Virus record (IMG/VR): IMGVR_UViG_3300030085_004590
Span: 1 to 64,000 of that record
Source of the DNA: a virus
DNA: 64,000 bases
Direction: 5' to 3' (one strand)
How positions within the stretch are numbered: the stretch's first letter is position 1; every line of letters begins with the position of its first letter. Position numbers and translations under genes: made by a program. A model generated the notes under the pieces. It was not told the DNA's origin. It was given only the letters and a program-made list of their open reading frames with translations, and searched no databases. This document shows positions 4,050 to 53,589 of the stretch, one piece after another.

Positions 4050-4817
4050 ATGCCAAGAAAAAGAAGAAAAAAATCAAAAGTGTATTTCGGTACACCTGCT
4101 CAAGAAGCAATTATCGAATACAACAAATGTAAAGACCCAAAGAAGAGGTCTAAAATTTACGAAGAAAGAATTAAATATCCATTCGAAAAACTAGCAGAGA
4201 ATGTTTTAAATACATTTAAGTTTACTTATTTTGATGTACCCAAGAGAGATGTACAAACTGAAGTAGTATCTGTAATGGTAGAAAAAATGCATATGTTTAA
4301 AGAGGGTAAGGGTAGAGCGTTCTCTTACTTTACTATCATTGCAAAGAACCATTTGATTTTAAAAAACAATGGTAACTACAAAAGATGGAAACAAAATTCA
4401 TTACTTTCAGATATGCCACAAACATGGAATCCGGAGAATGATTTTTATAAAGACCAATTAGATAATGAGTATTCTGAATTTAAAAAAATGATGTTAGCAT
4501 ATTGGGATAAAAATTTAAATTCAGTATTTAATAAAAAGAGAGATTTACAAATTGCAGATTCTATCTTAGAATTATTTAGAAGAAGTGAACACATAGAAAA
4601 TTTTAACAAAAAACATTTATACCTTTTGATAAGGGAAATGACGGATTGTAAAACACATTATATTACCAAAGTTGTAAATGTAATGAAACAACATCAGAAA
4701 AAACTTCTAAATGATTTTCTTGAACATGGTGAACCACTAGATAGTAGAACCAGTCCATTTTGGAAACAAGAAGAACCTGAAGATGAGAATCCATATTTAG
4801 ATAATGATTATTTATGA
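4050..4817 (+). CDS. 55: T4 gp55-like late sigma factor
   Basis: A 255-residue protein resembling T4 gp55, the RNA polymerase sigma subunit for late genes. The core pattern is visible: an A-I-x-E-Y start helix, KYPFEKLAENVLNTFKF, a helix ending in F-K-x-G-K-G-R, AFSYFTIIAKNHL, then a basic K-x-x-x-W-K-Q segment. It has a basic N-terminus (PRKRRKK) and an acidic C-terminal tail like those used in T4 for clamp contact. It is longer than T4 gp55 (185 residues) through a central helical insertion. It is the natural candidate to recognise the TATATTTA motif found before the tail genes. It overlaps the next gene by ATGA at 4814-4817. Confidence 0.75.
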   Translation: MPRKRRKKSKVYFGTPAQEAIIEYNKCKDPKKRSKIYEERIKYPFEKLAENVLNTFKFTYFDVPKRDVQTEVVSVMVEKMHMFKEGKGRAFSYFTIIAKNHLILKNNGNYKRWKQNSLLSDMPQTWNPENDFYKDQLDNEYSEFKKMMLAYWDKNLNSVFNKKRDLQIADSILELFRRSEHIENFNKKHLYLLIREMTDCKTHYITKVVNVMKQHQKKLLNDFLEHGEPLDSRTSPFWKQEEPEDENPYLDNDYL

Positions 4818-6526
4818 AATATGTTTTAGGAATAAGTTGTGGTTACCACGATAGTGCAGCTGCACTTATAAAAGATGGAAAAGTTTTAGGTGCATGTGAG
4901 GAAGAAAGATTTACTGGTATAAAACATGATTCTAGTTTTCCCAAAAACACAATTGAGTGGTTAATGGAAACTTACAATGTAACATCTGATAATCTTCATG
5001 CAATATGTTATTACGAAAAACCCAAAGAAAAATTAAATAGAATACAATTAAGTTTAGAAAAGAAACCAAAAAAATGGTATGATATTTTTTACAACACTAA
5101 AAAATCTATTTTAAAAAGAAATCAAAAATCTTACGAAGAGATACAAAATGAAATAAAAAAATTATGTGGTAAAAACACATTGATTCATTATGTAGACCAT
5201 CACCAATCTCATTTAGCATATTCATATTATACTTCACCATTTCATCATTCAGCAATTCTTTCAGTAGATGGTGTTGGTGAATGGGAAACAACTTGTCTAG
5301 CATTAGGAAGTAAAAACAACATAAATAAAATGGGAAGTATAAACTTTCCAAATTCATTGGGAATGTTATATTCTACTTTCACTGCATTCCTTGGATTCAA
5401 ACCAAACGAAGGTGAGTATAAAGTGATGGGATTAGCTCCATATGGAAATTCAAAAAAATATAAAGAAAAATTTGATAAGTTAATTAAAAAAGGAAAAAAT
5501 GGTACTTTTGAAATTGATATGCAATATTTTACTTACGAGTATGACGATAAAAGTATGTTTAACGAAAAACTTGGACAACTATTTGAAATACCAAATAGAT
5601 TACCAGAAGAAGAATTAACTCAAGACCACAAAGATATAGCAGCAGGTTTACAATCGTTATATGAAGAATTATTTTTTGATTTACTCAATGTATTATATGA
5701 ACAATCACAATCAGATAGTTTATGTTTAAGTGGTGGATGTGCATACAATGGAACTGCTAATGGAAAAATATTACAAAGAACTAAATTTAAAAAACTTTAT
5801 ATACCCCCTGCTCCATCTGATGCTGGTTCTGCAATTGGATGTGCTTTAGATTATCATTATAGAACTTCTGAAATCAGAGTTTTAAACAACAACCCATTCT
5901 TAGGACCAGGTTATGGAAAACAAGATATTCTTAATGCAATGGAAAAATATAAAGATAAGATTTGGATTGAAACAAAACTTAAAGAACAAATCGTGGATGT
6001 TATTGCAAAAGAAATTAAAGATGGTAATGTAATTGGTTGGTTTGAAGGTAGAATAGAATTTGGAGCAAGAGCATTGGGTAATCGTTCTATTCTTGCAAAC
6101 CCAAGAGACCCTCAAATGAAATCTCGATTAAACAGAGTTATAAAAAAGAGAGAAGGTTTCAGACCTTTTGCACCAATGGTAAAAGAAGAACTTTCAAAAG
6201 CATATTTTTACTACAATGACACCGTTCCATATATGAACCAAGTTGTTAAAGTAAAAGAAGAACATGGATTCTTCTTACCATCAATTACTCATGTAGATAA
6301 CTCAGCAAGAATACAGACGGTGAATAAAAACCAACATAGATACATTTATGAACTACTTGACAAACTTCATCAAATAAATGGATATCCTATTGTAATTAAT
6401 ACTTCTTTTAACCTCAAAGACCAAACAATGGTACTTACACCAGAAGATGCAATTAGAACATTTTTAGATTGTGAAATGGATATACTTGTACTCCATAATC
6501 ATATTATAAAAAAGAAAATTCTTTAA
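4814..6526 (+). CDS. NodU/CmcH-type carbamoyltransferase
   Basis: A 570-residue protein of full family length. The N-terminal Kae1-like domain shows GISCGYHDSAAALIKDG and CEEERFTGIKHDSSFP; DHHQSHLAYS is the conserved metal/ATP-site histidine cluster. The C-terminal domain shows GWFEGRIEFGARALGNRSIL followed by NPRDP, and REGFRPFAPMV. These enzymes transfer carbamoyl from carbamoyl phosphate through carbamoyl-adenylate to hydroxyl groups of sugars, Nod factors or antibiotics. Here it likely decorates a glycan, although its target is unknown. It is translationally coupled to the sigma factor gene, and the stop at 6524-6526 is followed by a 470-base regulatory stretch. Confidence 0.9.
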   Translation: MKYVLGISCGYHDSAAALIKDGKVLGACEEERFTGIKHDSSFPKNTIEWLMETYNVTSDNLHAICYYEKPKEKLNRIQLSLEKKPKKWYDIFYNTKKSILKRNQKSYEEIQNEIKKLCGKNTLIHYVDHHQSHLAYSYYTSPFHHSAILSVDGVGEWETTCLALGSKNNINKMGSINFPNSLGMLYSTFTAFLGFKPNEGEYKVMGLAPYGNSKKYKEKFDKLIKKGKNGTFEIDMQYFTYEYDDKSMFNEKLGQLFEIPNRLPEEELTQDHKDIAAGLQSLYEELFFDLLNVLYEQSQSDSLCLSGGCAYNGTANGKILQRTKFKKLYIPPAPSDAGSAIGCALDYHYRTSEIRVLNNNPFLGPGYGKQDILNAMEKYKDKIWIETKLKEQIVDVIAKEIKDGNVIGWFEGRIEFGARALGNRSILANPRDPQMKSRLNRVIKKREGFRPFAPMVKEELSKAYFYYNDTVPYMNQVVKVKEEHGFFLPSITHVDNSARIQTVNKNQHRYIYELLDKLHQINGYPIVINTSFNLKDQTMVLTPEDAIRTFLDCEMDILVLHNHIIKKKIL

Positions 6527-15777: not shown

Positions 15778-17570
15778 TGGCAATACAAGATTTTAAAGAA
15801 ATAGAGGAAAGAAAAGGATATCTTGTTGAAAAAGAAGATAGAAAGATATTTCAAAAAGAAATATCAAAGGCCAACTTTGGTCTTGGATGTGCCGATATGA
15901 TTGAATTTATCCTTTACGATGTAAGTGATAATCAATTACCACAAGGAGATGATGGAAAATTAGTTCGTTATATTCATCTTGATGATGCAAATATTTCAAA
16001 ATACTTTACAATATCGGATAATATAGTTACTAAAAAGAAAGGTGATGTACCAGAATTTATAGTAGATATAGAAACTCTTATTAGAGAGGCAGGATATAAT
16101 AATGGTATTTTTAAAACTCAAGTAACTCTTTTAAACAGAAGATTAGGAAATGAAGTAGGGGATACTGATAAACTTTGGATACATGAAATCTCACCATCAA
16201 GAACAGAGATTAGAGTTTTACCTATTAGAGCAAAAGAAAAGAATGAAGATTTAGAAAAAAGATATGGGGTTTTTACAAATGGTGATACTTTTAGAGATGA
16301 TGTAATTTATTACATTGAAAAATTTGTTGAAAGTATTGATTTACCAAAAATTATTTCTACATTTTTAATGTCAAAAGGAACTGAAGAAGATGGTAAAAAA
16401 TATATCAACAAAATTAAAACAGAATTTAAGATTGAAAGTTTTGATATCTTTATGTATCAGGTTGAACGAAAGTTTATCGAATCTATGCAATATTATGCAA
16501 GAAAAAGAGTTTGGAATATAAACGATGTAAATTATGGTAAACCATCTGAAGAACAAGATTGTATTGAATTATCAATTAAAAAATTACAACAAGATGCAAT
16601 CACTGCATTAATTAATTCAATCGATTTTAATTTACCAAAAAGAAATATTCAAGAAAATAGTGTTTTAACTAAAGAAGAACAAATAACTTTAGATAAGGTA
16701 AAACAAATTTTAAAATCAAGAACATCAGATAACATTTACGATAGTACAGTTATCGAATCTGAAGTACTTGGTTGTACAGACCCAAAGGCTTCAAATTATA
16801 ACGAACTAGCAACAACTAATGATGGTAGTTGTCAGTACAATGAAAGAATTGAAGTATTAGGATGTACAAATCCTAAAGCAAAAAATTATAATCCAAAGGC
16901 AACTAAAGATGATGGTAGTTGTGAATATGAAATGAATACCGAAACAACAAAATATTATGTTTGGTCTGCTAATGCATCATTTCAATACAGAGATAGTAGT
17001 GATATTTTAAAAACACAAAATGGTTTTGAATATGATAGTTTTTCAATAACTCAGATAAAAGGTTCGTTTAAAGTTTTGACTGGTGATGTAAGAAGGGTAC
17101 CAAAATTGAGACCTACCGCAGATACGAGAACATATCTTATTAAGAACGATAGACACAGACCAAGATATTTTAATGAAGATTTGGGTGGATATAGTAATAA
17201 TGTATATTTCAACGAACAAACCTCACAGAGCTTAAATGTATCATATGTTGATGCAAGTGGTACAACACAACAATCAAGTTATATGCAGCCAGGAGAAACT
17301 ACAACTATTTGTGCAAGAAAAGGAAGTGTAAGTGCACCAGATGGTGTAAGTGTAATAGAACGAGGTACTTGTGGATTGGCTGATTTTCAAACAGTTGGAA
17401 ACACAGGTCAAGGTTCACCAGGAGCAGTAGGAGGAGGTAGTTCTGGTGGAGGATTTGGAGGAGGACCAATAACTGGTCCAGGTTTTGGAGGAAATAGTTT
17501 TAATGATATACCAACACCAGGTTCATCAGAAGTAGTTCTAGGACCACAAACAACTTATAATATAAAATAA
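15777..17570 (+). CDS. Tail/baseplate protein with two GCTDP-type repeats
   Basis: A 597-residue protein. Residues about 1-320 are mixed alpha/beta and structural. Two tandem repeats of about 30 residues begin at residues 332 and 362, each with the pattern G-C-T-x-P-K-A-x-N-Y-N and D-G-S-C-x-Y. This cysteine-paired motif is common in secreted Bacteroidota proteins. The C-terminal third has a fibre-like domain and then a glycine-rich stretch (about 545-575). Flanking genes overlap by one base on each side, so it belongs to the tail cluster. Exact role unknown. Confidence 0.65.
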   Translation: MAIQDFKEIEERKGYLVEKEDRKIFQKEISKANFGLGCADMIEFILYDVSDNQLPQGDDGKLVRYIHLDDANISKYFTISDNIVTKKKGDVPEFIVDIETLIREAGYNNGIFKTQVTLLNRRLGNEVGDTDKLWIHEISPSRTEIRVLPIRAKEKNEDLEKRYGVFTNGDTFRDDVIYYIEKFVESIDLPKIISTFLMSKGTEEDGKKYINKIKTEFKIESFDIFMYQVERKFIESMQYYARKRVWNINDVNYGKPSEEQDCIELSIKKLQQDAITALINSIDFNLPKRNIQENSVLTKEEQITLDKVKQILKSRTSDNIYDSTVIESEVLGCTDPKASNYNELATTNDGSCQYNERIEVLGCTNPKAKNYNPKATKDDGSCEYEMNTETTKYYVWSANASFQYRDSSDILKTQNGFEYDSFSITQIKGSFKVLTGDVRRVPKLRPTADTRTYLIKNDRHRPRYFNEDLGGYSNNVYFNEQTSQSLNVSYVDASGTTQQSSYMQPGETTTICARKGSVSAPDGVSVIERGTCGLADFQTVGNTGQGSPGAVGGGSSGGGFGGGPITGPGFGGNSFNDIPTPGSSEVVLGPQTTYNIK

Positions 17571-20500
17571 TGCCACACAGTAATAAACAACATATGGCCC
17601 CACAATTAGATGGAAAAAGACGAGGACAGATTGTCAACGATGGTAGTATTGTTGCAGGTGTTGAGGTTGTTGGTAAATGGGAATGGAATGGTAAGAGATG
17701 GGTTGATATTACACCTCAACCAAAACAAAGTTTATACACACGAGATATGGGCCCAGCAATTGAAGTGGGTGATGGTGGTAATTTAGCGTTTGTACAACAA
17801 TCGGATTCAGTATCTGGTGGTAGAGCAACAAATCCAACTACCCTTATTGATAATGTACCTGTTTTTGACTTAGGACCAGGTGTAAGTGTTCCTGCTGTTG
17901 GTGGAATAGAATTTATACCAGGTGAAGGAGTACCACAAGCACCAGGTTTACAATCCATTGTTAGGGGTTGTATGGATAAAAAAGCAATTAATTATAATCC
18001 AAATGCAACTGTTGCAGATAATACAAGTTGTATTTATACTACTGTTGATACCGGCCCTTTATCAGAAACACCAAATCTTACAGTTGTAGTTAAAGCAAAT
18101 AGAGATTCTCAGATATTAATTGATGGTAAAGATTCACAAAAAAGGACATCAAGTACTTTTGTTTATACTGCAAAAGAATTATTAAGTGGTAAAACTTTTA
18201 AAGTTCAAAGTGGTGAGAATTATAAATCAAAAGATACATATAAAGTTGCGGCGGTTAAGAAATTTTTTGAAAAACAAATTAAACCAATTCCTTTTGTAGA
18301 TGATAATCTTAGTATTTCTATTGATGAAAATGAAAGAGGTGTATTAAATGAAACAAAAAACTTTGGTAATATACTTTTCCCTTACTATGAATTTCAAATC
18401 TTAAAAAATGGCAAACCATTTAGAACATTTGGTAGTGATTATAAAAATTTATTACAAAACCAAATAGTAACACTTGATTTTAATTTAGAATCAGATGTGG
18501 TTAGAGTAGACCCAAAACCCGTTGGTACAAAAGTATTTATTACATCTAATGTTTCATCAAATGATATAATAAGATATAGAACATCAACTGGTCAAACTAA
18601 TTTACTATTAACAGATGATGAGGTTGAGTTAACTTTAAAAAGAAATGCAGATAGTACTCCATTGTACATTGAATTCTTTGGTGTTGGAATTGATGAAACT
18701 ACCCATACGGTAACTTATAGTTTTGATACTCCAAACAAAAGGGCAACTGAAAAGATAAACACTATTGATTATAAACTTGAATTACAAGAAGGTACAACTA
18801 ACATTACAGTTGATGCAGTAAAAGTACCGAAAGAAAAACCAATAGATATTCCTTTATTAAATGTATCTTCAAATAAATTTAAATACAATATAAACACCAA
18901 AGAATCTTTAAAGATAGAATATAATACTGTAAACGCAGATAGGATAGAATATTCATTAGGTAAAACTAAAAGAGAAGAAAAATCAAGTGGTACGATTGTT
19001 TTATCAGAAAAAGATTTCTTAAATGGAGTTGGTACATATACTCTTTATATTCAAGCAAGAAATAAAATTGGTGGAAGTGATGTAGAGAAAATAACTATTG
19101 TTGTTGAGAGTAGAGAATTCATACCAGGACCAGATATTACAAATATAAACTATCCACAAAATATTCAAGGTGCAGATTTCAAAGAATTTAATGTACCATT
19201 CGATATTAGTTGGCAATCTATTAATACTGATTACATTAGAATTTATGCTGGAAAATACAATCCACAAGCAGAAAAAGATTTCTTCTTAGGACAGTTCGGA
19301 AAATCCGGTAAAGCAACATTTACAGTTGAAGATGTATTAAGAGTAGCAAGGAGACAATTTGATGAGGATGATAATATTCTACAATTCCAATTATTCTTAA
19401 TACCTTTTAACGCACAAGGAGATTCACTTACATCTGGTAAAGTAGAAAAAATTAACATATCATTTGATAAAGGTGATTTAACTTTAAGAAGAGGAAATGT
19501 TATCGGTGATATTAGAAAAGCATTTGAATATTGTTTTGATTATTCTCAATTTGATGAACATACATCACCTTTACTTACTCATTATCTACATTTAGGTGAC
19601 GGAGAAAATAAATTAATATCAACTTATGGTATTGATGATGAAACATTTTCTGAATATACAATTGTTGATGAAACAAATGAAAGAAAAAAGATAAAAGAAG
19701 AAAAAACAATTGTTTTAAAATTATATGAACCATTAGAAGGTGGTATAGATGTAAATGATAAAATATGGATTTCTAAGATTCAATCTATACCTTTAATAGA
19801 CCAAATTACTATCCTTGATGATGTATCATCTGATTGTATTCCTTTAACACCAAATCTAAGTTTAGAACTTAACGATGATATAGGATATCAGATTTACGAT
19901 GATTTAATAGCAAGTGGTTCAACTTCTTCAGAAGCAGTAATACAAGAATTTGTTTCAGGTAGTGGATTTTCATTAGATACACTTGAATTAGAATATACTT
20001 CAGGTAGTGGATACCAGTGGGGTAATTTTGTAAAATATTCATCTGCAAAAGAGAGAGTTGCAAACTTCTATTACAAAATGAAGTTGTTAGAATCATATAG
20101 AAGTAAACATGAGTTACTAGCAACTGCAACTGGTTCTGCAGGTTCAGTTTCAAGTCAAAACGAACAAAGAAGAGTACTTGGAAAGATGTCAGAAATCAAA
20201 CAAAATTTTGATGCATTTGAAAAACACCTTTATACAGTTAGTGGTTCGTTACAATATCCTAAGAGTGGAACAAGTAATATTAAGTTAACAGATACTGGTA
20301 GTATTCTTAACCCAACTGGTTCTGAAGCAACAAATTGGTATAACACAATTTATGCTACAGCATCTGCATACGATAGAGATAATCCTCAAAGGTTAGTAAA
20401 TAATTTACCTGCACACATTCAAGATGATGCTAAAGGACAAGAATTTATTTTATTCTTTGATATGGTTGGTCAACACTTTGATATTCTGTATCATTATATA

Positions 20501-22981
20501 AAAAGATTATCTAAATCAAAGAAAACTGAAAATAAATTTAAAGATGGAATTATAAGTGATTTAATGTATGAAATGTTAAGTTCACTTGGTTGGGATGCTG
20601 ATTTAGGAATATCATCTGAAACTCTTTGGGAATATGCATTTGGTGAACACTCAGATGGTACTCAAGTTTCTACAATGTCAGGTAAAGATAGACAACAAGA
20701 AACATGGAGAAGAATTTTAAATAACCTACCTTATCTATATAAACATAAAGGTACTAAGAGAGCAATTCATGCAGCATTATCTATTTATGGAATTCCAAAT
20801 TCTATGTTAACAATAATGGAGTTTGGTGGACCAAAAGATAACACTACTTCAAGATTAGTTAAATATAGTTATGATGATACAACATCTGCATTAAATATTT
20901 CTGGTTCTCAACAACTTATTATACCATGGAAACCAACTGATGGTAATTATCCTCAATCAGTAGAATTAAGAGTAGAAACTAATACAAAACAATCTCAAAC
21001 ATTAGTTTCAAGTAGTGGTTGGAGTTTAGATTTAAATTACATATCAGGCTCTTCAGCAAAATTACAATTAAATGTATTATCTGGTTCAACATATTATTCT
21101 GAATCGACTGAAACATTCCCATACTTTAATCAAGATTATACTCAGATTGTTGTAAATAGAACATCTGGCTCATCTTCAACATTTGAATTTTTTGCTAAAG
21201 AAGGATTTCAAGAAAGAATTAGAAATCAAGTAAGTGCATCATTTACGATTGGTAATAACAATGGTTGGAGAGATGGTTCAGAATTATTAATTGGTGGTAT
21301 GGGTATTAGTGGTAGTTCGTTTACTGGTTCAGTAGATGAAATTAGATTATGGAACACCCCACTATCTCAATCAAGAATTGATAATCACGCATTAAATGGT
21401 GATGCAATTGATGGTAATCATTCTTCATCCTCAACAGAAGATTTATTATTAAGAGTAGATTTTGAAAATCCAAGAAACCTAACATCGACTGGTAGTGATT
21501 GGAGAAATACATATGTATCACAATCAATGGTATCTGATGGATTGACATCTTTATCTGGTTCATTAGAAAGTGTTTCACCGATTACAACTTACGCTAACTT
21601 TATTACTGCATCTAACTTCCCATCAGCATCGTATCCATATGGATTTACATTCTATGATAGAAGAAATACATCAAATGTACCAAGCGTAGGATTATCAGTT
21701 GGGGATAAAATAAGATTTGAAGAACAAACATTAACTTCTAACTTATCATATAGAAGTAGAGGAACTAAAAAATCGTTTGACCAATCACCACTTGATTCAG
21801 ATAAATTAGGATTATTCTTCTCACCGGCAAAAGAATTGAATCTTGATATTGTAAAAACTATTGGTGATTTTAGTATTGATGATTTAATTGGAGACCCAAG
21901 TGATTATTATGAAGATGGATATACATCTTTAGATAGATTCAGAAACTACTATTTTAGTAGATATAATGTAGATTTCCACGAGTATATTCAGTTGGTAAGG
22001 TATATTGATAAATCTTTATTTAAACTCTTGGAAACACTTGTTCCTGCAAGAGCTAAGGTAACTACTGGTTTATTAATTGAACCACATATGTTGGAAAGAA
22101 GTAAGATTAAAAGAAGTAAACCAACAGGTTCAAATGACCAATATGAAACTTCAATTGGTATTCAAGATGAGATGATTGTTACATCTTCGAAAGATGATTA
22201 CACTGCTGAACTTGATACAACAAATATTACAATATTATCTGGTTCAAAACATTTTCATGAAGGTGAAATATTAGAAGCAGTAAGTAGTAGTTTAGTTGGT
22301 ACAAAAGATAATTACCAAAGTATAATATCCGCATCAGATAATTTTATCACTACTGGTGATATTACAAGAAACTCTGGTTCAGATATGGCAGGATTTGATA
22401 TTAGAATTGAAGCAGTAATATCTCAATCGGTACAAGGAGAATATGATTCAACTGCTTATCAACAAATTGGAATGGACCCTAACTCACTTACAATTGCTGG
22501 ATTTGGGTTATATGGTAGTGGTTCAAATGCAATTATCACAAAATTAGATAAAGATAATAATTTTGTTAGAGAAAGAAGTAAAGTATTTTTAATAAAAGAA
22601 TCATATACAGTTGATGTACCACAAAATATAAACTCAAATGATTCATCTTTAGGTACAGAATTGGTATCACAAACACGATACAGACACTTTATTAATATTT
22701 TACCTTTTACTGGTTCAAATGGTTCTGAATCAACAGACCCAACTGTTACTGGTAATGTTGTTGAAGTAAAACCTTTAAATGGTGCATTTGCATCTCATTA
22801 CATAAATACTGGTGATTTAACAACAGGTTTAGAAAACTCATATTTTAATGGTTCAAAACAAACTGCAGCAACTACCTTAGATGGTAGTTCTCCTATTCAA
22901 ACATTCACTACTAATCCAAATACTCTTAAAGTAAATGATGGTGGTAGAGGAAGTGGAGAACCAATTTTAGAAGTAGAATAA
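17570..22981 (+). CDS. Giant multidomain baseplate/tail protein (tail protein I-like and LamG-like parts)
   Basis: 1803 residues. In order: a short N-terminal domain; one GCMDKKAINYNPNAT repeat (about 133-155) like those in the previous protein; several Ig-like beta domains (about 160-640); a mixed region; a helical segment at about 954-1090 containing YLYKHKGTKRAIHAALSIYG, which resembles the (H/R)-K-G-T-x-x-A-I-x-x-A-L signature of phage tail protein I (P2 gpI); a LamG/ConA-like domain at about 1131-1284 ending SVDEIRLWNTPLS; then Gly/Ser-rich fibre-like sequence. It is in the position where T4-like phages carry gp7/gp8 wedge genes and probably combines wedge and adhesin functions. Confidence 0.65.
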   Translation: MPHSNKQHMAPQLDGKRRGQIVNDGSIVAGVEVVGKWEWNGKRWVDITPQPKQSLYTRDMGPAIEVGDGGNLAFVQQSDSVSGGRATNPTTLIDNVPVFDLGPGVSVPAVGGIEFIPGEGVPQAPGLQSIVRGCMDKKAINYNPNATVADNTSCIYTTVDTGPLSETPNLTVVVKANRDSQILIDGKDSQKRTSSTFVYTAKELLSGKTFKVQSGENYKSKDTYKVAAVKKFFEKQIKPIPFVDDNLSISIDENERGVLNETKNFGNILFPYYEFQILKNGKPFRTFGSDYKNLLQNQIVTLDFNLESDVVRVDPKPVGTKVFITSNVSSNDIIRYRTSTGQTNLLLTDDEVELTLKRNADSTPLYIEFFGVGIDETTHTVTYSFDTPNKRATEKINTIDYKLELQEGTTNITVDAVKVPKEKPIDIPLLNVSSNKFKYNINTKESLKIEYNTVNADRIEYSLGKTKREEKSSGTIVLSEKDFLNGVGTYTLYIQARNKIGGSDVEKITIVVESREFIPGPDITNINYPQNIQGADFKEFNVPFDISWQSINTDYIRIYAGKYNPQAEKDFFLGQFGKSGKATFTVEDVLRVARRQFDEDDNILQFQLFLIPFNAQGDSLTSGKVEKINISFDKGDLTLRRGNVIGDIRKAFEYCFDYSQFDEHTSPLLTHYLHLGDGENKLISTYGIDDETFSEYTIVDETNERKKIKEEKTIVLKLYEPLEGGIDVNDKIWISKIQSIPLIDQITILDDVSSDCIPLTPNLSLELNDDIGYQIYDDLIASGSTSSEAVIQEFVSGSGFSLDTLELEYTSGSGYQWGNFVKYSSAKERVANFYYKMKLLESYRSKHELLATATGSAGSVSSQNEQRRVLGKMSEIKQNFDAFEKHLYTVSGSLQYPKSGTSNIKLTDTGSILNPTGSEATNWYNTIYATASAYDRDNPQRLVNNLPAHIQDDAKGQEFILFFDMVGQHFDILYHYIKRLSKSKKTENKFKDGIISDLMYEMLSSLGWDADLGISSETLWEYAFGEHSDGTQVSTMSGKDRQQETWRRILNNLPYLYKHKGTKRAIHAALSIYGIPNSMLTIMEFGGPKDNTTSRLVKYSYDDTTSALNISGSQQLIIPWKPTDGNYPQSVELRVETNTKQSQTLVSSSGWSLDLNYISGSSAKLQLNVLSGSTYYSESTETFPYFNQDYTQIVVNRTSGSSSTFEFFAKEGFQERIRNQVSASFTIGNNNGWRDGSELLIGGMGISGSSFTGSVDEIRLWNTPLSQSRIDNHALNGDAIDGNHSSSSTEDLLLRVDFENPRNLTSTGSDWRNTYVSQSMVSDGLTSLSGSLESVSPITTYANFITASNFPSASYPYGFTFYDRRNTSNVPSVGLSVGDKIRFEEQTLTSNLSYRSRGTKKSFDQSPLDSDKLGLFFSPAKELNLDIVKTIGDFSIDDLIGDPSDYYEDGYTSLDRFRNYYFSRYNVDFHEYIQLVRYIDKSLFKLLETLVPARAKVTTGLLIEPHMLERSKIKRSKPTGSNDQYETSIGIQDEMIVTSSKDDYTAELDTTNITILSGSKHFHEGEILEAVSSSLVGTKDNYQSIISASDNFITTGDITRNSGSDMAGFDIRIEAVISQSVQGEYDSTAYQQIGMDPNSLTIAGFGLYGSGSNAIITKLDKDNNFVRERSKVFLIKESYTVDVPQNINSNDSSLGTELVSQTRYRHFINILPFTGSNGSESTDPTVTGNVVEVKPLNGAFASHYINTGDLTTGLENSYFNGSKQTAATTLDGSSPIQTFTTNPNTLKVNDGGRGSGEPILEVE

Positions 22982-46233: not shown

Positions 46234-47010
46234 ATGTCTATTATTAACTATGTCTTAGTTAAAGAGTTTTTTACCAACAACTTCAAGATAAAAAAAGACA
46301 CAAATCAAAAAGAGTTCAAAGATTTTTCACCTGTTAAATACAGATGGACACATGGAGCTACTGATTTTCATCTTGGTGATGGTTTACTCATTTATTCAGC
46401 TATTCAGTATATGAGAGCTAAAACTTGTGTCTGTTTAGGAAGTGGTGGTGGATTCATTCCACGAATCATGTCTCAGGCAAGAATGGATTTACATGACCAA
46501 AAAATATTTGAAGGTGAAAAACTTATGGAATGGGGAGATGTAGGAACAACTATTTTAGTTGATGCATCAAATGGTGTTGGTGGACATACTGATTGGGTAG
46601 AGAAAGATTCTTTTTTTAGAACTCATTTTCCATGTAGAGTAATTTTAGATACTACTGAAAATGCATATTATAATTTTTTCGTAAAAGAAGATATTAAGAT
46701 TGATTATCTTCATATTGATGCAGGACATTCTTATGAAGATGTAAAAAAAGATTTTGAATTATATTCAAAACTATTATCACCAAATGGTATTATATCAATA
46801 CACGATACAGATGAATCTTTTGAAAAAGAACATATAATATCGGATGATATAATAGATTCATATCATCAAGAATATGCTAATGGACCAGCAAAATTTGTAA
46901 AAGAATTAAAAGAAAATAAAGAGTGGGAAGTATTTAACTTCTTTAATAATGGTATTTTAAGAGATAAACCATCTTCTACTGGTCTAACATTTATTAGAAA
47001 AAATGCATAA
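46234..47010 (+). CDS. SAM-dependent methyltransferase (class I, Methyltransf_24-like)
   Basis: 258 residues. Motif I VCLGSGGGFIPRI, then DYLHIDAGHSYEDVKKDF and LLSPNGIISIHD, the arrangement typical of sugar O-methyltransferases of the Methyltransf_24 type, where the H-I-D-x-x-H segment contributes to metal binding. Probably methylates a sugar hydroxyl. Overlaps the following glycosyltransferase by eight bases. Confidence 0.75.
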   Translation: MSIINYVLVKEFFTNNFKIKKDTNQKEFKDFSPVKYRWTHGATDFHLGDGLLIYSAIQYMRAKTCVCLGSGGGFIPRIMSQARMDLHDQKIFEGEKLMEWGDVGTTILVDASNGVGGHTDWVEKDSFFRTHFPCRVILDTTENAYYNFFVKEDIKIDYLHIDAGHSYEDVKKDFELYSKLLSPNGIISIHDTDESFEKEHIISDDIIDSYHQEYANGPAKFVKELKENKEWEVFNFFNNGILRDKPSSTGLTFIRKNA

Positions 47011-47857
47011 GATAAATTTAGTAACTGTTGTGGGACATAATATAACAATGTTACCACATATGTTAAATCATTATAAAGATATAGTAGATGAAGTATATGT
47101 AGTTGTTTATAGACAACACGAAGATGATGGTATAGTTGATAAAATAAAAAAATTAGGTATAACTCCATATAAAATTGTAACTGAACCAAAGTTTAATTGG
47201 GAAAAAGTTACTGAGTTATACAACGAAGTAAAAAAAACAAAACCAAACGAATGGTGGGTGGTTTCGGACGATGATGAATTCCATGTGTATCCTAAACCTT
47301 TACAAGAAATGATAAATGATTGTGAAGAAAATGGTTGGGAGTTTATAACAGGTGGATTCATCGATAGGATAGGAGAGGATGGTACATTTCCAAAAGTTTA
47401 TAATAAAACTAATATATGGAAAAAATTTCCTTATGGTGGATTTTTTAGATATCCACTTTCTCAAGCTTGTCCAAATAAATGTTGTGTTATGAAAGGGAGA
47501 GTAAAAGTAACACACGGACAACATTATGGTATTATTAAAGATAAGCACATTTGGGGAAAAGAAAATTTAAATCATCCTCTTCGATATCCACCGGGTAGAG
47601 GAGAAGGGTTTGTACAAGTACACCACTTTAAGTGGGATTCAACCGTTTTAGAAAGATTAAAAGAAGTTTCTGAAACAAAAAAAGAGTACACTTTTTGGGA
47701 AGAATACCAAAAAATGTATGATGCAATAAAAGATTCTGATTGGAAAATTGATATTTCAAATAAAGAATTTTTTATGGAACGATTACATCAAAATCCAAGT
47801 GAACATTGGGAATATTCAAAATGGAATCGTTTGTTAAAAAAAATTATCGCGGTTTGA
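47003..47857 (+). CDS. Glycosyltransferase family 2/92-like protein
   Basis: 284 residues. GT-A features: an N-terminal VTVVGHNITMLPHMLNHY segment, VYVVVYR strand, WWVVSDDDEFH (the metal-binding D-x-D region) and a later H-H-F-K-W-D segment. A GT92-like or DUF-type glycosyltransferase of 280-300 residues. Donor unknown. Co-directional and overlapping with the methyltransferase. Confidence 0.65.
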   Translation: MHKINLVTVVGHNITMLPHMLNHYKDIVDEVYVVVYRQHEDDGIVDKIKKLGITPYKIVTEPKFNWEKVTELYNEVKKTKPNEWWVVSDDDEFHVYPKPLQEMINDCEENGWEFITGGFIDRIGEDGTFPKVYNKTNIWKKFPYGGFFRYPLSQACPNKCCVMKGRVKVTHGQHYGIIKDKHIWGKENLNHPLRYPPGRGEGFVQVHHFKWDSTVLERLKEVSETKKEYTFWEEYQKMYDAIKDSDWKIDISNKEFFMERLHQNPSEHWEYSKWNRLLKKIIAV

Positions 47858-47866
47858 TAGTTTTTA

Positions 47867-47874
47867 TATATTTA
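47867..47874 (+). promoter_or_regulatory. Late-promoter-like TATATTTA element
   Basis: TATATTTA followed by TATAT, nine bases after the previous stop codon and 29 bases before the ATG at 47904. Confidence 0.6.
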
Positions 47875-47903
47875 TATATGTATTTAAAATTAAATTAAAA
47901 GTT

Positions 47904-48083
47904 ATGCCAGCAAAAAAAGACGAAACAGCACAAATTTTAGAAGAGAGAAAAGTAAAAGCTCTTGAAAAAATTGCTAATTCATTAGATGCACTTACTTTAT
48001 GGTTTGAAGAAATCGATAAAGAAGATTGGGGACCAAGAATCGAATGGTACCTTTCAGAGTGGTACGAAAAGAAAATCAAGTAA
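47904..48083 (+). CDS. Small hypothetical protein, 59 residues
   Basis: Starts MPAKKDETAQILEER, with an N-terminal basic helix and a Trp/acidic C-terminal half (LTLWFEEIDKEDWGP and EWYLSEWYEKKIK). No family recognised. It has its own promoter element and is seven bases before the next gene, so it appears to be a genuine gene heading this cluster. Confidence 0.65.
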   Translation: MPAKKDETAQILEERKVKALEKIANSLDALTLWFEEIDKEDWGPRIEWYLSEWYEKKIK

Positions 48084-48090
48084 ATAACTT

Positions 48091-49512
48091 ATGTCAAAAA
48101 TCGGTATCATAGTTCCGTACAGAAACCGAAGGACACACTTAAATCATTTTACTACTGCAATTAAACATCATTTTGATGATTCAAAACTTTCATATGAATT
48201 AATCATTGTTGAACAGGCAGATAAAAAATCATTCAATAGAGGTTCATTATTAAACATTGGTGTAATTAAAGCAAAAGAACTTAATTGTACTTATGTTGCA
48301 TTACACGATGTTGATATGTTACCTATTGATGTTGATTATTCTGAGGTGAGTGTTCCTACCCATCTTGCAACCAATTTTATTTCACATAAAGATAAAATGA
48401 AAAGGGTTGTATTTGATGAGTACTTCGGTGGAGTTACTTTATTTCCAATAGATGATTATTTCCATGTCAATGGATATTCAAACAAATATTGGGGATGGGG
48501 TTATGAAGATGATGATTTATTGTGGAGATGTAAAGAAAACTTTCTTGATTTTAACACAAAACAATTACCTACAAAGGCACATAGTAGTGCAGGTTTAGAG
48601 TTTAATGGTTACACTAGTCAAGTTAAAATACCAAAACCATTTAAGTTAAAAAATTATACTTTATTTTGTTCATTTAATCCAGCAGAGATAGAATGTAATG
48701 AAGGGTTTATGTTTGATGAATATAATATTTTATCAATACCAGGTATGGATACTGGTTTTACTTTTAACTCTTACAAAAGATATAAATTTGAAACTTGGAC
48801 GGCAGATAAAGAATGTATAAGTTTAAAATCAAATATCACTACACCAAAACAAACTACATTATGTGCATCAATAAACCAAGATGAACACATAATTAAATTT
48901 TATCAAGATGGTGAACTCGTAGATGAGGCAGAATATGAAGGTAGAGTACTCCATTATTTAAATGAAAAATTTATTTACCTTGGTGATTCACCATCTCTTC
49001 AATATAATCAAAGAAGGCCTTTTAGAGGTACGATTGATTATTTCGCATTATTTAATCATTCGTTAGAAGATGCACAAATAAAAGAAATTTCTGATAACAA
49101 AGGTATGGGATTAACTGAAGCATATGGTGATTATGTTGCACCACATACTTTAGAAATGTGTTATGATATGAAGAATGCAACTTATTCTGAAGTTTATGAT
49201 GTTACTCAAAGAAAAAGAACAGCAGAAGTTAAGGATTGTGGTAAGGTTCTAATAAATCAAGTAGATGATTTTATAGAAATACCCGTACCATATAGAAGAG
49301 AATCAACCTTTAAACTTTTGTATCATAAAGAAAATGGTTTTTATGAAAATAAATGGACATGGACAGAAACAAGAAAAAATCAACTTCACTTTTATAATAA
49401 AGTTTTAAAAGGAAAATCTGATTATAAAAGAGATGGTATAGATAATGTTAGATACGATTTATTATCCGATACAAAAATGGATGATTATCACTTTATATCA
49501 GTAGAACTATGA
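48091..49512 (+). CDS. GT7 galactosyltransferase-like enzyme with inserted LamG/ConA-like domain
   Basis: 473 residues. Beta-1,4-galactosyltransferase (GT7) core: VPYRNR (8-13), FNRGSLLNIG (49-57), D-V-D (73-75) and YWGWGYEDDD (133-142). A LamG/ConA-like beta domain then occupies about residues 166-375 (GLEFNGYTSQVKIP at its start, RGTIDYFALFNHSLEDAQI near its end). The GT7 C-terminal element resumes with VPYRRESTFKLLYH and DGIDNVRYDLL (from 448), equivalent to the D-G-L-N-S-L-x-Y segment of animal enzymes. The lectin-like domain thus interrupts the catalytic fold. A paralogue lies two genes on. Confidence 0.75.
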   Translation: MSKIGIIVPYRNRRTHLNHFTTAIKHHFDDSKLSYELIIVEQADKKSFNRGSLLNIGVIKAKELNCTYVALHDVDMLPIDVDYSEVSVPTHLATNFISHKDKMKRVVFDEYFGGVTLFPIDDYFHVNGYSNKYWGWGYEDDDLLWRCKENFLDFNTKQLPTKAHSSAGLEFNGYTSQVKIPKPFKLKNYTLFCSFNPAEIECNEGFMFDEYNILSIPGMDTGFTFNSYKRYKFETWTADKECISLKSNITTPKQTTLCASINQDEHIIKFYQDGELVDEAEYEGRVLHYLNEKFIYLGDSPSLQYNQRRPFRGTIDYFALFNHSLEDAQIKEISDNKGMGLTEAYGDYVAPHTLEMCYDMKNATYSEVYDVTQRKRTAEVKDCGKVLINQVDDFIEIPVPYRRESTFKLLYHKENGFYENKWTWTETRKNQLHFYNKVLKGKSDYKRDGIDNVRYDLLSDTKMDDYHFISVEL

Positions 49513-49919
49513 TGCCAATGTATAAGACAGGAATAATTGCAGGTAACTTTGATGTACTACATCCAGGTTACATTAAAATGTTTGAAGAGTGTAAATCCTA
49601 TTGTGAAAATTTTATAATACTTTTACACACCGACCCATCAATTGAAAGACCAGAAAAATTAAAACCAATACTTTCGGTAGAAGAAAGAATGGAAATGTTA
49701 TATGCAATAAAATTCATTGATTTTATTCATATTTATACTTACGAAAATGAATTGGTGAAATTGTTAGAAGGAATACGACCAGATATAAGATTTTTGGGTG
49801 ATGATTATAGGGGAAGAACTTATACAGGTTTTGAGTTAAATATTCCAATTCACTATTTAAATAGAGACCATGGTTGGTCTACAACAAAATTTAAAAATCT
49901 AATTGCAAAGACAGTATGA
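49509..49919 (+). CDS. Cytidylyltransferase-like protein (TagD type) with altered HxGH
   Basis: 136 residues, the size of glycerol-3-phosphate cytidylyltransferase. GNFDVLHPGY (12-21) is at the HxGH site but ends in Tyr21 instead of His; the later features RPDIRFLGDDYRG and WSTTKFK (the S-T-T-x-x site) are intact. It would activate a sugar- or polyol-phosphate with CTP, but the missing second histidine raises doubt about activity. Overlaps neighbours by ATGA at both ends (49509-49512 and 49916-49919). Confidence 0.78.
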   Translation: MMPMYKTGIIAGNFDVLHPGYIKMFEECKSYCENFIILLHTDPSIERPEKLKPILSVEERMEMLYAIKFIDFIHIYTYENELVKLLEGIRPDIRFLGDDYRGRTYTGFELNIPIHYLNRDHGWSTTKFKNLIAKTV

Positions 49920-51385
49920 AGATAGGTGTTTGTGTTCCTTATAGAAATAGAGAAGCTCACTTAAAAGAGTTTATACCAACTGTTAGTAAATATTTGGAAT
50001 CACAAGGAATTGATTACCACATTTATTTTGGTCATCAAGTAGATGATAAATTGTTTAATAGAGGTGCTACAAAAAATGTAGCAGCAGAGTGGGCATTCAA
50101 AGAAGGATGTGATTACATTGTTTGGCATGATATCGATATGATACCCGAAGAAGGTTGTGATTATTCTTTTCCAAAAAAACATCCCATACATATTGCAACA
50201 AATATATCTCAAATGGATTACAAACTAAAGTATGAAGAATACTTTGGTGGAGCAGTTTTATTTTCAAAAGAACAAGTAGAGGCAACAAATGGATACTCAA
50301 ATGATTATTGGGATTGGGGAATGGAAGATGATGATTTATTTTGGAGATGTGTACTTGAAGGATATGCGAATGCATCTTATATGGATTATCCTACTGAAAA
50401 ACAAAGTTACTTAAATTTCAATGGTAAAAATTCATTTATAAAAATAGATAGAGATAAAAAATTAAGAAACATTACTTCTCGTTCTCATACAGTTTCAGTT
50501 TTAGTTCGTGCATATCAACAAGAAGATAAAGTAAACATTTGGTTAGTAGGTGATGAGGATAGAAGATTTTGTGAGTATCCAATAATTCGTAGACCAGGAT
50601 ATGATTGGGGATTGAGTTATAACAATTCAAGAGCATATACGGCCCAACTTTGGGATAATCAAAGAAATCATTTATATCAATGGATAAAAAGATATGAAGG
50701 ACAATGGACATGGGTTACTTTAAGTGTTGATACTGCAAATCAAAAAATTCATTTTTATTTAAATGGTAAAGAATCAGATGCAAGACACGGTCATGGTACA
50801 CAATCCCCTTTACATTATGAGAATAGATTAAAATCCTATGGATTAGATGATTGGTACATAGGAACAACTACTTCTGCACGAAAAACTGATATTAATCGTT
50901 GGTTAAAAGGAGATATAGGAAAAGTTTGTATGTGGAATAGAGTACTATCAGAAGAAGAAATAAAAAATATTCACAAAAATGTACCAGAAAAGAATTTAGT
51001 TTTACATTATGATTTTAATTCTGATTTACAAAAAAATTCTCCTTACACCGCAGTTGATTTAAGTGGAAACGAATTACATGGTAGTATTAGAAACTGCGAA
51101 TTACACGAAGGAGAAATAAAAATACCATATACAGTTTTACCACACAGAGTACCTGGAAGATTAAAATGTTTACCACACAAAGATGAAGGATTGGTAAAAG
51201 ATGAACATGGAAACGATAAGTGGGCAAAGGGAGAAACCACTGCAAGAAACGAAAGAAGATATGTTCTTCAAATGCAACAAGGTGAATGGGATTATAAATC
51301 AGATGGTATAAAACAATTAAAATATGAATTAGTTGGAGTTGAAGAGATTACTCCCAAAGCAAAACTAATAAATGTTAAATTTTGA
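49916..51385 (+). CDS. Second GT7 galactosyltransferase-like enzyme with inserted LamG/ConA-like domain
   Basis: 489 residues, paralogous to the 48091 product. GT7 core: VPYRNR (7-12), FNRGATKN (47-54), D-I-D (72-74), YWDWGMEDDD (131-140). The LamG-like insert spans about 155-395 (YLNFNGKNSFIKID at the start; KGDIGKVCMWNRVLSEEEI and LVLHYDFN near the end; WTWVTLSVD and KIHFYLNGKESD inside). The GT7 end resumes with LPHRVPGRLKCLPHKDEG and DGIKQLKYELV (from 463). Better-preserved LamG signatures than copy 1. Likely transfers a hexose to a glycan that the LamG part may bind. Confidence 0.78.
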   Translation: MKIGVCVPYRNREAHLKEFIPTVSKYLESQGIDYHIYFGHQVDDKLFNRGATKNVAAEWAFKEGCDYIVWHDIDMIPEEGCDYSFPKKHPIHIATNISQMDYKLKYEEYFGGAVLFSKEQVEATNGYSNDYWDWGMEDDDLFWRCVLEGYANASYMDYPTEKQSYLNFNGKNSFIKIDRDKKLRNITSRSHTVSVLVRAYQQEDKVNIWLVGDEDRRFCEYPIIRRPGYDWGLSYNNSRAYTAQLWDNQRNHLYQWIKRYEGQWTWVTLSVDTANQKIHFYLNGKESDARHGHGTQSPLHYENRLKSYGLDDWYIGTTTSARKTDINRWLKGDIGKVCMWNRVLSEEEIKNIHKNVPEKNLVLHYDFNSDLQKNSPYTAVDLSGNELHGSIRNCELHEGEIKIPYTVLPHRVPGRLKCLPHKDEGLVKDEHGNDKWAKGETTARNERRYVLQMQQGEWDYKSDGIKQLKYELVGVEEITPKAKLINVKF

Positions 51386-51400
51386 TATATATTAATATAA
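51384..51400 (+). promoter_or_regulatory. Weak promoter-like AT element
   Basis: TGATATATATTAATATA lies about ten bases before the ATG at 51410. It resembles the repeated late element but departs in the central T run, so I give it little weight. Confidence 0.2.
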
Positions 51401-51409
51401 AGATATTCA

Positions 51410-52858
51410 ATGGCAGATTTAATAGCAAAACAAGAAGAGAAAAAAAGAAAAATTAACATTGATGATGATAGTCCATTTTATGTGGATATTAGAAAATCAT
51501 TAAATGACCAAGGACCTGGGTTTTGTTTAGCAAAGTGGACACAAGTTACAATGCATTTACAATTGGGTCATACTCATTCTTGTCACCACCCTAAAACACA
51601 TCAAGTTCCTTTAAGAGAATTAAAAAGAAATCCAACTGCTCTTCACAATACGATGTACAAGAAAAGAAGAAGAAAAGAGATGTTGGAAGGACAAAGACCA
51701 GATGAATGTGATTATTGTTGGAATGTAGAAGATAGTTCTAATAGATTTTCAGATAGAACTTTTAAATCTGCAGAGAACTGGTCGTATCCTTATATGGATG
51801 AAATCAAATCATTAGGTTGGAGAGATGATTATAATCCAAAGTATGTTGAAGTTTCATTTTCAAATGCATGTAATTTTAAATGTTCTTATTGTGGACCAGC
51901 ATTTTCAACAAAATGGATGGAAGAAGCTGAAAAATTTGGAGCATATCCAACAACAGATGGTTTTAATGATTTAACTTATTTAAAACAAGAAGGTAAAATG
52001 CCAATGCCAGTAACCCAAACAAATCCATATGTAGATGCGTTTTGGAGATGGTGGCCAGATTTATATAAAGATTTACACACTTTTAGAATTACTGGTGGTG
52101 AACCTTTAATGTCACAAGATACTTGGAAAGTTTTAGATTTTATTTTAGAACAAGAAAATCCAAATAGAGAATTGAATCTTGCAATAAACTCTAACTTAGG
52201 AGTACCTGATAAATTAATTGATAGATTTATAGAAAAGGTTGCGAGAATTTGTGATGAGGGAAGAGTAAAAGAATTTGTAATCTTTACTTCGGTTGATACT
52301 TGGGGTAAACAGGCAGAATATATTCGAAATGGTTTAGAGTTTAATAGATTTTGGGATAACTGTCATAAAGTTTTAGAAAAAATACCACAAGTTATATTAA
52401 CTTACATGGTAACTTACAATGCACTTTCAGTTCCAAACTATGATAAACTAATTAGAGGTGTTTATGATTTAAAAACCACTTATGGTTCGGATGATAGATA
52501 TTGGAACTCTGCAACATTCTTAGATACATCTTATTTAAGACACCCAACTCACCAAACAGTACAAGTTTTAGAACCACATTGGGCAGATAAAATTTATGCT
52601 GATGCACAATTAGTAGATTTCTTAGGAGTACCATTATTCGAAAAAGAATACATTGGATATTCGGATGTTGAAATTCAAAAATTAAAAAGAACTTTCGATT
52701 GGATGAAATCACCAGTGGCAGAAGAACAATTAAAAAAACAAAGATACAACTTTGGAAGATATTTCAGAGCACACGATGAGAGAAGAGGAACAGATTTCTG
52801 TGCTACTTTTCCAGAACTAGAAGAATTTTATAGAAAATGTTTAGAAATTAAGATATGA
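51410..52858 (+). CDS. Radical SAM enzyme (twitch/SPASM-like)
   Basis: 482 residues. The iron-sulfur motif Cys154-x3-Cys158-x2-Cys161 is in ACNFKCSYC, followed by TGGEPLM for SAM binding. The N-terminal region carries extra Cys/His (SCHHPKTH and CDYCWN), as in twitch-type radical SAM proteins with an auxiliary cluster. Substrate unknown; candidates are sugars or peptides. Its cofactor could come from the phage MetK. Overlaps the LamG-like gene by ATGA at 52855-52858. Confidence 0.85.
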   Translation: MADLIAKQEEKKRKINIDDDSPFYVDIRKSLNDQGPGFCLAKWTQVTMHLQLGHTHSCHHPKTHQVPLRELKRNPTALHNTMYKKRRRKEMLEGQRPDECDYCWNVEDSSNRFSDRTFKSAENWSYPYMDEIKSLGWRDDYNPKYVEVSFSNACNFKCSYCGPAFSTKWMEEAEKFGAYPTTDGFNDLTYLKQEGKMPMPVTQTNPYVDAFWRWWPDLYKDLHTFRITGGEPLMSQDTWKVLDFILEQENPNRELNLAINSNLGVPDKLIDRFIEKVARICDEGRVKEFVIFTSVDTWGKQAEYIRNGLEFNRFWDNCHKVLEKIPQVILTYMVTYNALSVPNYDKLIRGVYDLKTTYGSDDRYWNSATFLDTSYLRHPTHQTVQVLEPHWADKIYADAQLVDFLGVPLFEKEYIGYSDVEIQKLKRTFDWMKSPVAEEQLKKQRYNFGRYFRAHDERRGTDFCATFPELEEFYRKCLEIKI

Positions 52859-53589
52859 TTCAATTAAAAGGTGATAATGCATATTTTATCCCTCCAAAAA
52901 ATCGTTATGGGTTATGTAAAAAGGAAACCTTTGATTTAACTGAAAAGGATTTCACAGTTTGTGTACGCGTAAAAATAGATTGGGATAAAATGGAAATTGG
53001 TACTCCAACCCACGAAGGGGGTATTGTTGCAAAGAACGGTAGACATTGTGGTTTAAGTGCTTTAAAAATAAATGAAGAACAATGTTATATCAAAGCACAA
53101 TTTTGGACATGGCAAACAAGAGAAGTTGGTGTAGAATTTCACGATACATGGATTGATGTAAATCAAAATAGTGATTGGATGACAGTTGCAATGATACATG
53201 ATAAAAAGAAAAAAGTTGTAACTTGTTATGTAGATGGAAAAGTAAGTAAAATTTCATATTCAGGTGAAATAATAGATTATAGAGATTCTTGGATTTGGGT
53301 TGGGTGTAATAACTCATTAGATAGTTGTGCACCTGAACACAGAGGATTCCTTCATGGAGAAATAAATCACTTATCAATTTTTGAAACTGCATTAAAAAAT
53401 GAAGAAGTAGAAAAAACATTTGAAATAAACTCACCAGATTCAGTTGATTTCGATAAAATACCAGCAGCAATATATTGTTTTAAAGAAGAATGGCAAACTC
53501 CATATAAAATCATGGATATTACTCATAATGGTAACTCGATGATTTTATTTGATAAAAAATGGATGGCAGAAGATAATAGTTTAATTTAA
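52855..53589 (+). CDS. Stand-alone LamG/ConA-like protein
   Basis: 244 residues. One concanavalin A-like domain: KDFTVCVRVKIDW, GGIVAKNGRHCGLSA, WMTVAMIHDKKKKVVTCYVDGK and LHGEINHLSIFETALKNEEV, the usual LamG series. No signal peptide and no catalytic residues. It matches the inserts in the two GT7-like enzymes in character and lies directly after the radical SAM gene. Presumably binds a glycan or modifies a partner enzyme in trans. Confidence 0.7.
   Translation: MIQLKGDNAYFIPPKNRYGLCKKETFDLTEKDFTVCVRVKIDWDKMEIGTPTHEGGIVAKNGRHCGLSALKINEEQCYIKAQFWTWQTREVGVEFHDTWIDVNQNSDWMTVAMIHDKKKKVVTCYVDGKVSKISYSGEIIDYRDSWIWVGCNNSLDSCAPEHRGFLHGEINHLSIFETALKNEEVEKTFEINSPDSVDFDKIPAAIYCFKEEWQTPYKIMDITHNGNSMILFDKKWMAEDNSLI

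Follow-up and report, generated by a model that had tools for sequence, protein, structure and literature searches.

We analyzed a 64,000-nucleotide stretch of viral DNA (the window), contained in a virus record of 123,353 bases in which baseplate and endolysin genes are present. Two plus-strand genes in the window, at positions 48091-49512 and 49916-51385, encode proteins of 473 aa (protein 1) and 489 aa (protein 2) that share 30% identity over their whole length. Along both chains, a GT7 core precedes a LamG domain, and the corresponding Pfam matches (GT7N, GT7C, and Laminin_G_3) all exceed their curated cut-offs. Both proteins contain the motifs VPYRNR, HD[VI]D, and YW.WG.EDDD in the core and P.R...H...DGI in a C-terminal element, or tail, that lies beyond the LamG domain. 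A sequence-only reading of this DNA had described the order as GT7 core, LamG, and C-terminal element in both proteins, and the open reading frames, motifs, and order of Pfam matches agree with it in full; the tail also contains conserved W, T, and N residues in addition to the motifs listed there. The inserted domain of protein 1 measures 236 aa, which is also the median over 108 representatives, and that of protein 2 measures 247 aa. The features of the locus are collected in Table 1.

Table 1. Features of the GT7 locus and neighboring genes (window positions)
Feature	Positions	Strand	Evidence
Methyltransf_24 gene, conserved cassette	46234..47010	+	Pfam; 118/124 related loci
GT2-like glycosyltransferase gene, conserved cassette	47003..47857	+	Glyco_tranf_2_4; 119/124 related loci
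Protein 1 (clade A), GT7 catalytic core, aa 1-158	48091..48564	+	Pfam GT7N 7.9e-18, GT7C 1.3e-15; B4GALT1/7 in PDB 1e-22
Protein 1, inserted LamG/ConA-like domain, aa 159-394	48565..49272	+	Laminin_G_3 2.1e-11 on excised piece; PAPP-A, pentraxin, and 4dqa folds
Protein 1, GT7 C-terminal element (P.RR...H...W..T..N...DGI), aa 395-473	49273..49509	+	Alignment with B4GALT7 (Drosophila) after insert removal; His at metal-ligand position 164/164
Small nucleotidyltransferase gene (136 aa, RfaE/TagD-type cytidylyl- or adenylyltransferase) between the GT7 genes	49509..49919	+	CTP_transf_like; rfaE_dom_II 1.1e-17, below cut-off
Protein 2 (clade B), GT7 catalytic core, aa 1-156	49916..50383	+	GT7C 1.1e-19, GT7N 8.6e-17; B4GALT1 4e-28
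Protein 2, inserted LamG/ConA-like domain, aa 157-403	50384..51124	+	Laminin_G_3 1.2e-10 on excised piece; 4dqa and pentraxin folds
Protein 2, GT7 C-terminal element, aa 404-489	51125..51382	+	His421, Pro409, Asn445, and Gly464 invariant; insert-excised B4GALT1 alignment reaches His421
Twitch-domain radical SAM gene, conserved cassette	51410..52858	+	NF033640 349 bits (cut-off 170); 118/124 related loci
Free LamG gene, separate LamG lineage	52855..53589	+	Laminin_G_3; tree; 48/124 related loci

The two genes belong to a five-gene cassette that occupies positions 46234-52858 of the window and keeps its order across most related loci. Methyltransferase, GT2-like, protein 1, protein 2, and radical SAM genes were found in 118, 119, 123, 121, and 118, respectively, of the 124 loci compared, some of which overlap, with one contig able to yield two loci. 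Genes of the protein 1 type (clade A) and of the protein 2 type (clade B) usually touch; in 63 of the 95 locus pairs, some of them from overlapping loci, the gap is -1 or -4 bases. The nucleotidyltransferase gene, which in the window lies between the two GT7 genes, is present in 28 of the 124 loci.

Relationship of the LamG domain to the GT7 fold

Separate profile searches of the insert and the GT7 parts, the check that the sequence-only reading had proposed, gave unmixed results. The excised middle pieces (236 and 247 aa) matched Laminin_G_3 at approximately 1e-11 and 1e-10 (42-45 bits, cut-off 27.6), with no match to a GT7 model. The joined flanks, in turn, matched GT7 and not LamG. When the intact proteins were searched against the PDB with phmmer, the alignment ended near residue 150. 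After in silico removal of the insert, protein 1 gave a single alignment to Drosophila B4GALT7 that covers query residues 3-223 and runs through the C-terminal element, and the alignment of protein 2 to human B4GALT1 extended up to the metal-ligand His.

We then used profiles of the core, insert, and tail built from approximately 108 representatives. The tail profile matched cellular GT7s directly after the core and, loci truncated at an edge aside, never found a tail paired with a core-less LamG. In known beta-1,4-galactosyltransferases the core and C-terminal element had been said to be contiguous, and this holds for 84 GT7 homologues (viral L127-L133 and cellular L145-L218; 41 of the 84 are in the alignment) that run across the junction with no insert. 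One such junction reads GLTIE-SRAGTFLSLSH, at which point the inserted family has approximately 240 residues.

Features expected of both folds are present in one chain. The core matches GT7N and GT7C, and its RxR and FNR (UDP-binding), DxD, and WG.ED motifs are invariant in all 164 full-length relatives; the metal-ligand His and DG of the C-terminal element are likewise invariant and align with B4GALT7, although they are separated from the core in sequence. The insert combines its Laminin_G_3 match with a jelly-roll fold (pentraxin/LamG in the PDB, E approximately 1e-9 to 1e-10). In sequence terms, a foreign domain lies between two parts of one catalytic fold, the arrangement of a nested-domain glycosyltransferase. 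Insert excision, the tail profile, and the contiguous GT7s all support the nesting inferred in the sequence-only reading, and we conclude that a complete LamG/ConA-like domain is almost certainly nested inside the GT7 catalytic domain of both proteins.

The alternative is that the C-terminal segment falls outside the GT7 fold, as part of LamG or as a separate appendage, so that the enzyme would be a plain core fused to LamG. It draws on the Pfam GT7C match, which stops ahead of this segment, and on the intact-protein alignments that stop at about residue 150. However, the tail profile matches cellular GT7s right after the core, no core-less LamG with a tail occurs outside edge-truncated loci, and the invariant tail His and DG align with both B4GALT7 and the contiguous GT7s, making this alternative highly improbable. 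Assignment of the tail to LamG was rejected on the pairing of the tail profile with cellular GT7 cores and not with core-less LamG. The idea that the middle region is ordinary GT7 sequence was rejected as well, because by itself this region is recognized as Laminin_G_3 and has a pentraxin/LamG-like structure.

Structures were predicted with AlphaFold2 by using alignments of window and locus proteins. The models have a mean pLDDT of 92.2 and a pTM of 0.87 for protein 1 and a mean pLDDT of 93.5 and a pTM of 0.85 for protein 2. After the insert, the predicted elements are a strand, a loop, a helix, and two strands, in GT7 order; the same succession is found in the B4GALT1 fold. The pTM values, secondary structure, and conservation suggest that the tail packs on the core. 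The superposition on B4GALT1 envisaged at the outset succeeded for the core, which aligned with B4GALT7 and B4GALT1 in Foldseek at E approximately 1e-13 and 29-38% identity over about 150 columns, with an rmsd of mostly 1.3-2.5 Å, but not for the rest, as Foldseek stopped at the insert. Whole-protein searches aligned either the core or LamG and never the full nested chain, and the viral predicted-structure library gave no full-length match (best TMq 0.39). The nearest folds to the insert are a putative carbohydrate-binding protein from Bacteroides (4dqa), pentraxins, and PAPP-A.

Conservation, distribution, and ancestry

In scans of viral contigs, protein 2 had 225 related stretches and protein 1 had 54. 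The insert is present in every one of the 164 distinct full-length relatives collected, and all ten catalytic or signature residues checked are invariant across this set. In protein 2 numbering, eight of these precede the insert (R10, R12, R49, D72, D74, W134, E137, and D138) and two follow it (H421 and G464). With the insert in 164/164 relatives and 10/10 residues invariant on both of its sides, the GT7::LamG arrangement is well beyond chance. Retention of the His and DG after the insert in every member argues most strongly that the tail continues to complete the active site.

The three regions evolve at different rates. Within clade A, mean pairwise identity is 0.61 for the core, 0.35 for the insert, and 0.44 for the tail; the corresponding clade B values are 0.69, 0.42, and 0.55, so the insert is the fastest-diverging region in both clades. 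Its length is nonetheless stable (201-247 aa), and clade B inserts retain strongly conserved stretches such as EYP..R..G...G.S.NNSR. No member of clades A or B lacking the insert was found.

The relatives fall into distinct clades, namely A (with protein 1), B (with protein 2), and a third that is less common (L027 and L079). The best tree from combined core and tail sequences needs one state change to account for the inserted proteins (branch support 23/66; 1-3 changes in bootstraps), and a single origin of the insertion is likely, not proven, on these sequences. Inserts of A and of B group apart, each in a supported clade (96/93 and 99/96); therefore, insert and enzyme were inherited together in both. 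The free LamG genes found downstream, among them that at 52855-53589, form a separate deep lineage, and with the A and B inserts in their own clades we rejected the free gene as a recent insert donor. The sequence-only reading had taken two diverged copies together with the free LamG gene as an argument for function. The free gene, as a member of a separate, old lineage, supports a functional role only weakly.

Several further open reading frames were observed among the related loci. The third-clade GT7::LamG protein at L079:2750-4255 has apparently lost the DxD motif (FHSPYFIP replaces HDVDMLP) as well as the tail His and, judged by these substitutions, may be catalytically dead. Another third-clade protein, at L027:1860-3338 (also in L028 and L029), has intact catalytic motifs and an insert that is too diverged for the clade A/B LamG profile and is still LamG-like in sequence. 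A 940-aa open reading frame with two LamG-like domains lies downstream of the GT7 pair at L099:8815-11634 and L115:8827-11646.

A LamG nested in GT7 was not found in PHROGs, NCBIfam, the PDB, the viral predicted-structure library, or 50,697 GenBank phages, which gave no match. We found no description of the architecture in the open-access literature, where absence is not proof of novelty. It is fixed in hundreds of environmental virus sequences, in two paralogue clades, and absent from the annotated collections searched. Outside viruses, five contigs of a genome-contig collection contain the full architecture. Three of them (L140, L141, and L144) carry both GT7::LamG genes plus other phage cassette genes and may be phage contigs binned with bacteria. 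The remaining two, a Fibrobacter MAG (L142, 400-1881) and a related bacterium (L143, 3842-5428), have a single copy each, with 78% mutual identity. The L142 copy lies beside a GT2 gene; that of L143 neighbors a GT2 gene, an ABC transporter, and an LRR kinase-like gene, and its locus looks chromosomal. Among 40 genomes of that bacterial class, just 2 had close relatives. The L142 and L143 copies are a probable instance of transfer between phage and bacterial surface-glycan loci.

Insertion site and proposed function

In the alignment with human B4GALT1, the gap for the insert falls between GMSIS and RPNAVVGRCRMIRH. The lid of the human enzyme comprises residues 338-365, of which Met340 and His343 bind Mn2+ and helix 354-361 contacts the acceptor (PMC6198961). 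Because these Mn2+ ligands lie in the segment that directly follows the gap, the insertion point maps roughly 10 residues before the mobile lid, and with the insert placed so near, an effect on lid movement or acceptor choice is plausible.

We propose that these proteins would act as GT7 (beta-1,4-galactosyltransferase-type) enzymes of a phage glycan cassette, each with one complete LamG/ConA-like domain inserted in its catalytic domain. The insertion site follows the strand after the EDDD helix and precedes the strand carrying the metal-ligand His, just ahead of the mobile lid, which closes over donor and acceptor. LamG, anchored at the base of this lid, would contact the acceptor glycan or the lid and thereby set acceptor choice. 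With two diverged enzymes, sugars would be added one after another to a single glycan of the host surface or virion. Both proteins are very probably active GT7 enzymes. The donor is probably UDP-Gal, since Tyr109 is invariant among the relatives at a position that we take to be that of the donor-specificity residue Tyr289 of bovine B4GALT1; this assignment draws on one residue and on family knowledge. The prediction that LamG serves as an acceptor or lid module is evenly balanced, and the full explanation, an active GT7 pair in which LamG at the lid base engages or selects the acceptor glycan, seems to us marginally favored. Processivity, which the sequence-only reading also raised, is speculative. 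Carbohydrate binding is not a property of all LamG or ConA-like members. Such folds also bind proteins or act only as scaffolds, and glycan binding here is putative.

Binding to protein rather than glycan is the basis of one competing explanation, in which the insert brings the enzymes together as dimers (A-B pairs or homodimers) or anchors them to a protein of the virion or of the cassette. Pentraxins and the LamG domains of PAPP-A, among the nearest solved folds, are active in protein assemblies; the free LamG gene is often near the GT7 pair; and B4GalT1 itself dimerizes close to the Trp loop and lid (PMC6198961). The usual contact between A and B genes points the same way, but adjacency alone would also fit two steps of one pathway. 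We regard this explanation as unlikely, though deserving of some weight. It is harder to maintain that LamG is a neutral passenger, a domain with close termini tolerated in a surface hairpin and having no role beyond folding. LamG-type domains are common in phage genomes, hence available for insertion, and the insert diverges faster than the core, a pattern that fits changing ligands and also a loosely constrained spacer. Yet retention in all full-length relatives and both deep paralogue clades, the stable length, the strongly conserved clade B stretches, and the lack of any insert-loss member found in clades A and B all speak against a passenger and render it distinctly improbable. The acceptor or lid role that we propose could also be given a more specific form, an acceptor-gated switch in which a lectin-like domain in the lid hinge is the covalent counterpart of alpha-lactalbumin on B4GALT1. 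This form, which spans a widespread viral GT7 lineage and two paralogues building a specific glycan on host surface or virion, is speculative, and we would not expect it to hold.

Animal B4GALT1 and B4GALT7 (CAZy GT7) share the catalytic motifs, metal-ligand His, and C-terminal element of the phage proteins, but their core and C-terminal element are contiguous, whereas the phage proteins have approximately 240 LamG residues in between. The 84 insert-free bacterial and phage GT7s (e.g., L145, L164, and L127-L133) are the closest core and tail homologues, yet lack LamG, and their plain forms are only about 220-290 aa long. In B4GALNT3/4, a PA14 domain precedes the catalytic domain and is not nested. 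These LacdiNAc synthases resemble the phage proteins in being beta-4-type enzymes with a lectin-like non-catalytic beta domain attached directly to the catalytic domain, and in B4GALNT3 that domain is required for activity (PMC11254600); they differ in having PA14 instead of LamG and in being eukaryotic Golgi enzymes. In the GPI-GalNAc transferase PGAP4, an inserted module splits the GT-A fold and has been proposed to position the catalytic site at its acceptor, but the insert is a pair of transmembrane helices and the enzyme belongs to another GT family (PMC5785973). B4GALNT3 and PGAP4 are the nearest precedents, and neither has LamG at a GT7 lid base. The phage proteins offer a natural experiment on how acceptor choice in an intensively studied enzyme family changes with a carbohydrate-binding-type domain at the lid base, and galactosyltransferases with an altered acceptor range could be engineered on their model.

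The GT7::LamG pair also marks a conserved phage glycan cassette of methyltransferase, GT2-like, two GT7::LamG, and twitch radical SAM genes. Pelagimyophage host-recognition clusters, located in the tail-fiber neighborhood, similarly combine glycosyltransferase and radical SAM genes and have been proposed to alter the host surface; the text of that paper contains no mention of laminin or galactosyl (PMC7029224). For the cassette described here, placement of the glycan on the host envelope appears just as plausible as placement on the virion. An upstream structural-gene motif occurred in only 1 of the 92 loci that have an upstream open reading frame in reach and is uninformative as to whether the cassette always follows tail genes. 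Downstream genes in the window resemble sugar-nucleotide enzymes, with epimerase/dehydratase-like, RmlC-like, and GDP-fucose-synthase-like matches below curated cut-offs. A baseplate protein of this phage is nearest to Microcystis and Flavobacterium phages (36-42% identity). Elsewhere in the window, an 1803-aa protein, possibly a tail protein, is encoded at 17570-22981 and contains a weak LamG match at 20951-21379 (24 bits, below cut-off), and a gene for a Nol-like (NodU-type) carbamoyltransferase (PHROG 1601 at 2.4e-115) lies at 4814-6526.
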